Positions 50,250 to 52,025 of a DNA stretch of 64,000 bases are shown here, piece by piece (the first letter of the stretch is position 1; every line of letters begins with the position of its first letter). A program made the translations under genes and the position numbers. The stretch comes from Terrimicrobium sacchariphilum. GTDB taxonomy: Bacteria > Verrucomicrobiota > Verrucomicrobiia > Chthoniobacterales > Terrimicrobiaceae. The notes under the pieces are model-generated. The model saw only the letters and a list, made by a program, of their open reading frames with translations, made no database searches and was not told the DNA's origin. The stretch is from contig NZ_BDCO01000002.1 in NCBI RefSeq assembly GCF_001613545.1, positions 2,666,001 through 2,730,000 on the forward strand, read 5' to 3'.

Positions 50250-52025
50250 CTATGGCTTCCAGCTTCGGGATGAGCGCGGATTGATCGCTCGCAACAGCGG
50301 GCGGACCTCGATCGCCGTCGCTGAAGGAACGAAGAGTTTCCGGTAACGTCCTGGAGTCTCCCCAGTCAGGCGTTTGAAGACCTTGGCAAAGTGGATGCGA
50401 TCGGAAAACCCGCAGGCTTCTGCCACATCGTCGATGGTTTTATTGGGATTTTTCAACAGTTCGCGAGCGTGATCGATTCTGACCCTGCGAATGTAGAGGC
50501 CGAGTTCCACTCCGGTGTGCTGTTTAAACTTTCTCCCGAGATAGTCCGGATGGCAGCGCAGGCTCTCGGCGAGTTCCTGGATGTTGAAAGGAGCATCGAG
50601 ATGCGCATGGATATAGCGGATGCTCTCCTTGACGAGAAATGGCGTTTCCTCAGTGCCTCCCGGGAGAAAGGCATCGAGATCGGCGCCATTGGAAGTGATA
50701 ACGCCGCGATACATGATCGCCGATTCCTTGAGACTTCGTCGCTGGGTTTCGTAATCCACATGGATCAAACCGAAGCGATAGGCATAACCGTGCTGCCACT
50801 CAAAGTTGTCCATGGCCGACCAGTAAAAATACCCTTTCACGTCCGTGCCGTCCTGAAGAGCTCGTCGGACTTGCAGAAGGTGCGAATTGAGAAAGTCGAT
50901 GCGAGCCTGATCGTGCACCTTCCCATCGAGGCCTGGGGAATCCGAGTTGGCCATGCCGTTCTCTGTTACAACGACTGGTATACGGTAATGTCGGTTGATA
51001 AAGCGCAGGCCCCAGTAGAGAGCCTTTGGGGTCTGTTTCCACCCACTGGAGGTTTCGGCATGGCCTGGCGGGAATGCCACGGCCACCGGCGCTCCGTCGG
51101 GTCCGGCTTTCACCGGGGTCCCCTGAAAGATATTGCAGCCGTAGAAATCGATGGGCTGCTTGATGATTTCCATATCCTTGCTGCCAATCTTGGGGGCGGC
51201 ATTACCGTAAACGAGCAGGCCGTCGTCGGGGTAACGTCCAAAGATCACCGGGTCGCTCAGCCAAGTGTTATTCCAGATCGTCCCGGGGAAGACGGAGAAG
51301 GTAGCCTGACGGGCAGCCTCCGTATCGGCCGATGCATCCGTAAAGGGATAAAAGACGGTCACGGAGGGCGACCAGCCGACCTTGGGAGGTTGTTTTGCGG
51401 TAGCTCGGATCGCTTGCACTCCCCGTCCATGGGCGAGCAGGGCATTGTGCATGGCCAGCAGGATTTCCGGGAGTTCGAGGCGCAGGCCTGGAGCGTGTTC
51501 TCCTGTGGCATAGCCGAGGCCGACGAAACACTGCGGGTCAGAGAGTGTCACCCAGTTTCGAACTCGATCAGACAGCCTCTGGACGACTGCCTGCGCATAC
51601 TCGGCAAACCAATGGGGACTCTCCGAGTTCAGCCAGCCACCCCGGAGGAAGAGTTCATAGGGGTAGTCCCAGTGAAATAGCGTCACCCAGGGGTCGATGC
51701 CCGCCTCGAGCAGCCGGTCGATCAATCGGTCATAGAAATCCAGCCCCTTTTTGTTCACCGGGCCGACACCCGCAGGCATGACGCGTGGCCATGAGATCGA
51801 GAGGCGGTATGCCTTAAGTCCAATCTGGGAAAACAGGGAGATGTCCTCCTCGTAGCGATGGAAGTGATCGCAGGCTTCGCGCCCGGATTGCCTTTCCCGG
51901 ATATGATCACCGCTGCGGGTAAACATATCCCAGACGGAAAGTCCTTTACCGTCCCGGTCCCATGCGCCTTCCACTTGATAGGCCGAGGTCGAGGCACCCC
52001 ATACGAAGTGTTCGGGAAAAATCAT
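50250..52025 (-). CDS. GH1 beta-glucosidase-like domain fused to AraC-type DNA-binding domain
   Basis: 591-residue two-part protein with no signal peptide, so cytosolic. Residues 1-445 are a full GH1 barrel: [20 protein letters not shown], nucleophile Glu355 in VVVTENGM, and sugar-contact residues Gln17, His118 and NFEW (407-410). The acid/base motif reads TLSDP (160-164) instead of TLNEP, so Glu is Asp and Asn is Ser. Residues 463-565 are a two-HTH AraC domain ([41 protein letters not shown]). It probably binds a beta-glycoside and regulates transcription. It is divergent from sugar-uptake genes. A functional slow hydrolase cannot be excluded. Confidence 0.92.

Follow-up and report, generated by a model that had tools for sequence, protein, structure and literature searches.

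A GH1 beta-glucosidase-like barrel joined to an AraC/XylS DNA-binding domain, a probable beta-glucoside sensor in Terrimicrobium sacchariphilum and other Verrucomicrobiota

We analyzed a 64,000-nucleotide stretch of the genome of the soil bacterium Terrimicrobium sacchariphilum (3 contigs, 4,751,807 bases), hereafter referred to as the window, and found a gene that joins a degenerate GH1 domain to an AraC/XylS DNA-binding domain. We consider its product likely to be a one-component AraC/XylS regulator, in which a crippled GH1 beta-glucosidase barrel senses a beta-glucoside non-covalently and controls beta-glucan genes. The gene occupies positions 50250-52025 of the window on the reverse strand, and its 591 codons contain no internal stop. 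As the original prediction had described, a whole GH1 barrel and a complete AraC HTH pair are present in this one 591-aa protein, which is borne out by the ORF and by matches in both Pfam and NCBIfam. Glyco_hydro_1 scored 466 bits and covered profile positions 5-452 of 453, TIGR03356 (GH1 beta-glucosidase) scored 512.3 against a cut-off of 478.5, and the complete double HTH was recognized by HTH_18 (81.2 bits) and HTH_AraC (59.1 bits), both above the Pfam cut-off. The Pfam families of the protein were GH1 and HTH only, and the GH39 domain that marks the AraC-GH39 class was absent.

The degenerate GH1 (beta/alpha)8 domain, which is the proposed sensor, comprises residues 3-447 (positions 50685-52019, reverse strand), as delimited by Pfam and supported by AlphaFold2 and Foldseek. 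It is followed on the same strand by a linker of residues 448-461 (50643-50684) and by the AraC/XylS DNA-binding domain, with the Pfam HTH_18 match at residues 485-563 (50337-50573). The AlphaFold2 model, for which the input was 28 sequences, had a mean pLDDT of 88.4, and values below 50 were confined to residues 456-460 in the linker and to residues 567-576 and 588-591 in the tail. In Foldseek, the model matched the beta-glucosidase 9l0n best, with 43% identity and a TM-score of 0.97 when normalized by target length.

The GH1-AraC architecture recurs across genomes, as a search suggested with the original prediction revealed. Removal of 6 duplicates from 36 fusion ORFs left 30 distinct fusions from 20 Verrucomicrobiota genomes (our own count of sources), and the fusion is therefore not an artefact, which rules out an assembly or frame error as its source. 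A protein scan of genome contigs, whose seeds reach close relatives only, yielded 79 loci, including 10 with a full GH1-AraC ORF (among the best 80 of 147 relatives). We also searched genome samples with a profile (A2) consisting of the last part of GH1 and the HTH, and detected fusions in at least 5 of 387 genomes in the phylum sample, at least 13 of 384 in the class sample, at least 3 of 213 in the order sample (the three found all belong to the genus), and at least 4 of 200, 6 of 10, and 3 of 12 in three family samples; these samples overlap, and the large ones had part of each genome's candidates scored (e.g., 7 of 56 in the T. sacchariphilum genome), so the counts may be low. Two fusions reside in the T. 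sacchariphilum genome, namely the window copy and a paralog (L125; C2:3474290-3476080). In a tblastn search for plasmid-borne copies, 2416 plasmid records gave matches and 7 of them cover at least 80% of the query; the longest match among the best 8 rows of these 2416 records (H4) was a plain GH1. A defence system was ruled out, as PADLOC gave no match.

We then compared the residues of the 30 fusions with those of 87 related GH1 enzymes. The trees and residue counts include only GH1 stretches of at least 420 aa and 380 bits, and a long-branched GH1 of the T. sacchariphilum genome (L003) was removed from the residue counts and from the 62-row tree described below. The GH1 acid/base has been assigned to the motif TFNEP and the nucleophile to ITENG in PMC7817009, and the position numbering used here agrees with that placement. 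In the window protein, residues 160-164 read TLSDP instead of TLNEP, as originally predicted, with S162 (TCT) and D163 (GAC) in place of the acid/base motif N-E (51537-51542, reverse strand). The nucleophile position is retained as E355 within an E-N-G motif (GAG; 50961-50963, reverse strand), and so are Q17, H118, and N407-F-E409-W410, again in agreement with the prediction. All five genus copies carry S-D, encoded by differing synonymous codons (TCT/TCC and GAC/GAT), and the pair is thus a retained change.

The altered acid/base is therefore real in the window copy but lineage-specific. Position 163 is Glu in 24/30 fusions and Asp in 6/30, the latter being the five genus copies, which carry Ser at position 162, and L135 as a separate case; by comparison, all 87 enzymes have Glu at 163 and Asn at 162. 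Since 24/30 fusions retain Glu, the S-D motif is not family-defining, and with Asp in only six of them the loss of the acid/base was rejected as a family hallmark. The earlier description of the active site had the motif correct but overlooked a more general change from Tyr to Phe at position 300 (codon 51126-51128, reverse strand), where the active-site Tyr of the GH1 N-x-Y motif is replaced in the window protein. This position is Tyr in 87/87 enzymes, compared with Phe in 27/30, Ser in 2/30, and Tyr in 1/30 fusions, and Tyr300 replacement is a broader hallmark of the fusion family than Asp163. L142, the sole fusion that retains Tyr300, carries Ser at positions 298 and 356. The nucleophile position 355 is Glu in all 87 enzymes and in 28/30 fusions, with Lys in the paralog L125 and Gln in L140, and E163 and/or E355 is lost in 7/30 fusions. 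When 14 active-site positions were considered together, all were canonical in 0/30 fusions versus 86/87 enzymes (the rows are related rather than independent), and the single non-canonical enzyme, L140_N, has a gap at Gln17 only.

The residues that contact the sugar tell the other half of the comparison. Q17, H118, W119, W410, and R417 are retained in 30/30 fusions, and E409 in 29/30. The -1 subsite of the GH1 enzyme HiBgl, as given in PMC12264956, is formed by Gln17, His120, Trp121, Asn165, Glu166, Tyr308, Glu377, Trp427, Glu434, Trp435, and Phe443. By motif, the window protein retains 8 of these 11 residues, the Asn, Glu, and Tyr being changed, and position 300 would correspond to HiBgl Tyr308 through the N-x-Y motif rather than through superposition. 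This residue comparison indicates that the changes in the window protein hit the chemistry and largely spare the sugar contacts.

Phylogenetic analysis placed the 30 fusions on one side of a branch in a 118-row tree (SH-aLRT = 97), and the fusion clade was supported at 100/96 in a 62-row tree, for which 13 of 68 single GH1 rows were hand-picked. In the latter tree, the fusions grouped with 16 GH1 enzymes (93/61), 15 of which come from fusion-bearing stretches, and addition of L017_N to this group gave 100/93; the fork joining the fusions with neighbouring enzymes was left open in the quick 118-row tree. These topologies support the view that the fusion arose once in the sample, from GH1 enzymes. 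The 62-row tree requires a minimum of two changes to Asp163 and of two losses of Glu355. The nearest HTH in the T. sacchariphilum genome, except for that of the paralog fusion, belongs to a PocR-AraC regulator (53% identity over 105 aa), and its gene (G000:C2:301603-302688; L160:5604-6689) has a GH1 gene nearby in the same orientation. This regulator differs from the fusion in its sensory domain, which is PocR instead of GH1, and the similarity suggests that the HTH donor may have been a regulator from a GH1-linked locus.

We further estimated selection in six pairs and obtained dN/dS ratios of 0.033-0.079 for the GH1 part and 0.004-0.083 for the HTH part; these ratios are rough, though low, because synonymous divergence is near or above 1. 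Purifying selection persists on the fusions, and a pseudogene is ruled out by the low dN/dS. On balance, we favour a history in which a GH1 gene was duplicated and fused once to an AraC HTH, the Tyr was crippled, and the acid/base or the nucleophile was later lost lineage by lineage, so that a pocket from the pathway's own enzyme would now read its substrate.

A conserved upstream element, which we regard as the proposed operator, was identified at positions 52100-52139 (reverse strand; core, 52102-52128) by alignment of five genus loci. In the window its core lies 76 bp before the fusion ATG, the element common to the five genus upstream regions spans TAGGGCTG to TCCGAC, and the window has no other match to it. 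A search with a 27-bp pattern, allowing up to 3 mismatches, found exactly 2 sites per genome in the 3 genomes of the genus, all six with 0 mismatches, compared with 1 match for the reversed control. Five of the six sites are at the five fusion genes, and the sixth (L159 position 8745, G387 contig 12) lies ahead of a GH1 gene. When the 18-kb stretch at this sixth site was searched for a fusion gene, tblastn of the L127 fusion (E ≤ 1e-10) matched only the GH1 gene, and the best match of the window HTH was 16 residues long (E = 0.26). The regulator gene thus seems to have been lost there with its site retained, which fits the remaining fusion of that genome acting in trans on the promoter.

Of the 24 upstream regions outside the genus, 12 contained the 14-bp genus core TGYCATWATCCGAC with 3 or fewer mismatches and the other 12 lacked it, compared with a mean of 1.8 and a maximum of 5 for shuffled patterns and 0 for the reversed pattern. 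With up to 2 mismatches it was found in 1 of the 24 regions (shuffle mean = 0.19, maximum = 2). One of two near-identical regions (L150) had been dropped from this set, and several others are close relatives. A matrix built from the five genus sites gave p < 0.05 in 5 of 25 regions, with a combined Fisher statistic of 103.9 to which some close relatives contribute. As a candidate operator, the element appears firm within the genus and suggestive beyond it. The intergenic regions of L129 and L143 each contain two core-like sites of opposite orientation, at distances of approximately 90 and 145 bp from the fusion on its upstream side, and each divergent promoter may have its own site.

Divergent from the window copy lie two genes, the first encoding 177 aa with a probable signal peptide, as judged by eye (52268-52801, forward strand), and the second an MFS/GPH-type sugar transporter (52820-54274, forward strand; PF07690 and PF13347); these are the probable first and second target genes, respectively. 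The start of the former at 52268 agrees with relatives L126 and L128 (the listed ORF begins at 52100), and its product had no match in Pfam or NCBIfam but corresponds to a single free-standing module, which in the neighbouring GH16 proteins of relatives precedes the GH16 domain in one to four copies. Genes for a small secreted-looking protein and an MFS transporter likewise lie opposite the L126 fusion, and in G387 (L128) the small protein, the transporter, GH1, and GH16 occur together beside one fusion. By uniting the pair with GH1 and GH16, L128 links the two window genes to the same pathway.

Overall, a GH1 and/or GH16 ORF lies within the examined stretch of 25/30 fusions, with the GH16 match of L148 being a 124-residue ORF only; neither neighbour was found in the examined stretches of the window copy, L134, L141, and L142. 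A divergent GH1 gene is next or nearly next to 12/30 fusions (our own count), two of them with overlapping stop-to-stop ORFs. Nine GH16 proteins from eight loci exceeded the Pfam cut-off, and two GH16 proteins compared with the PDB had laminarinases and endo-1,3-beta-glucanases as best named matches, followed by weaker matches to carrageenases and porphyranases. A GH94 phosphorylase adjoins L139. In the T. sacchariphilum genome, the only one for which a background count is given, there are 4 GH16 matches, two of them no more than 4 kb from the paralog fusion, and GH1 and GH16 genes are divergent from the fusion at this paralog locus.

Several other features of these stretches were recorded. 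The window holds a second GH1 gene at approximately 61723-62910 (reverse strand; L010), which encodes a lipoprotein-like, divergent protein with intact N-E-P, N-Y-Y, and E-N-G motifs, and the same genome encodes at least two further GH1 proteins of this divergent kind (L008 and L009). Several fusions have beside them a pair of ORFs of about 1240-1290 aa and about 240-280 aa, namely L146 (at 2391-6970) and, with similar sizes, L131, L136, L137, and L149; in L146 the larger ORF has a start that looks prepilin-like by eye, and its pair had no Pfam match. Window positions 55342-57912 contain an 856-aa ORF that, judged by eye, seems to begin as a secreted protein rich in repeats and ending in a PEP-CTERM-like tail and to continue in the same frame into a pilin-like protein, and an ORF at a similar place in L126 had a weak N_methyl match below the cut-off.

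We propose that a beta-glucoside or beta-glucan oligosaccharide would be held non-covalently in the retained GH1 pocket, and that the ligand would alter how the C-terminal HTH domains are positioned or paired on the operator in the divergent intergenic region. The divergent genes would then be switched on, namely those for the small secreted-looking protein and the MFS transporter in the window and the GH1 and GH16 genes at the paralog locus. In this view, the sensor would have originated as a copy of the enzyme that serves the same pathway, with its catalysis crippled. We infer the loss or great reduction of hydrolysis in the fusions, and the same holds for the beta-glucoside as the ligand, for DNA binding at the upstream element, and for activation rather than repression of the target genes. 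The idea that a glycosidase was turned into a sugar sensor, put forward in the original prediction, thus draws indirect support from clade descent, the retained -1 contacts, the altered sites in 30/30 fusions, and selection.

The fusions may alternatively be bifunctional, acting as regulators and slow enzymes that still hydrolyze beta-glucosides through Asp163 or another acid/base, with turnover tuning the signal or destroying the inducer. The nucleophile is retained in 28/30 fusions and the acid/base Glu in 24/30, and some slow hydrolysis is possible since N-E-P and the nucleophile Glu are both intact in 22/30. Asp is able in principle to serve as the acid, and plant myrosinases hydrolyze with Gln at the acid/base position, so the earlier premise that retaining GH1 enzymes need a Glu acid/base is not absolute. 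Nevertheless, Tyr300 is replaced in 29/30 fusions versus 0/87 enzymes, no fewer than four changes on the 62-row tree are required to explain the loss of one or other Glu, and in the paralog, which remains under selection, Asp and Lys occupy the two catalytic positions, all of which make the bifunctional reading unlikely. A different role for the chemistry was raised in the original prediction, namely a stable glycosyl-enzyme that is left unresolved without the Glu acid/base and serves as the active state. The window copy, with Glu355 kept and Glu163 changed, would suit such a trap, and crippled GH1 enzymes can build up glycosyl adducts with activated substrates; with natural, poor leaving groups, however, loss of the acid catalyst also slows adduct formation. 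Moreover, in L125, which shares the S-D motif and has a matching element upstream, the nucleophile is replaced by Lys, and in L140 by Gln, so covalent trapping is not the shared mechanism of the family, and we consider it very improbable as the signal.

The barrel might otherwise be a protein-interaction platform that pairs, for example, with an adjacent GH1 enzyme and senses the free enzyme instead of sugar. The frequency of a divergent GH1 gene (12/30 fusions) speaks for such a platform, but the conserved -1 pocket residues would be needless for it and the window copy lacks an adjacent GH1 gene, which leaves the platform quite improbable. Finally, the repeated changes at catalytic residues could be read as the decay of a functionless gene fusion; the low dN/dS ratios of both parts in all six pairs, the 30 full-length open frames, and the conserved upstream element make this scarcely credible. 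Non-covalent sensing of a beta-glucoside by the crippled barrel is the reading that we prefer.

Known AraC/XylS sugar regulators have an N-terminal effector domain and divergent carbohydrate genes, a feature common with the fusion. The NCBIfam models of AraC, RhaR/RhaS, and MelR match the C-terminal double HTH of the fusion; these regulators sense via cupin-type domains, whereas the fusion carries a 450-residue GH1 barrel. As had been noted, it is unusual for an AraC protein to carry an enzyme barrel, but there is a precedent in the AraC-GH39 proteins, in which a glycosidase-type barrel is likewise joined to an AraC-like domain in one protein and which are treated as xylosidases in PMC8543862. 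These proteins differ from the fusion in having GH39 and in an AraC-like domain that is described there as N-terminal. The GH1-like domains of alpha/beta-Klotho, with a catalytic Glu replaced or called inactive, act as receptors according to PMC10229096 and PMC7828330. The window GH1 domain is also without a catalytic Glu (D163), an analogy for which a separate origin is presumed, but the Klothos are animal cell-surface co-receptors for peptide hormones and have no DNA-binding domain. GH1 beta-glucosidases (TIGR03356; PDB 9l0n and 8j3m) share the fold and most -1 subsite residues with the fusion, which differs from them in the change of Asn-Glu to Ser-Asp, the change of the active-site Tyr to Phe, and the added HTH. 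AraC regulators, AraC-GH39 fusions, and Klotho pseudo-GH1 receptors are already known, and we recognized no description of GH1-AraC regulators in the literature searched, which covers part of the field.

If the proposed function is true, these fusions would represent a clear example from nature of an enzyme turned sensor alongside its own genes. Apparent intermediates would survive, with the Tyr lost and both Glu kept, with the acid/base lost, or with the nucleophile lost, and the order of the evolutionary steps would therefore be open to laboratory testing. The fusions would also constitute an unusual sensor class for beta-glucan utilization in Verrucomicrobiota and may offer a scaffold for beta-glucoside biosensors. 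In T. sacchariphilum, a former enzyme of this soil bacterium probably now reports the presence of its old food.
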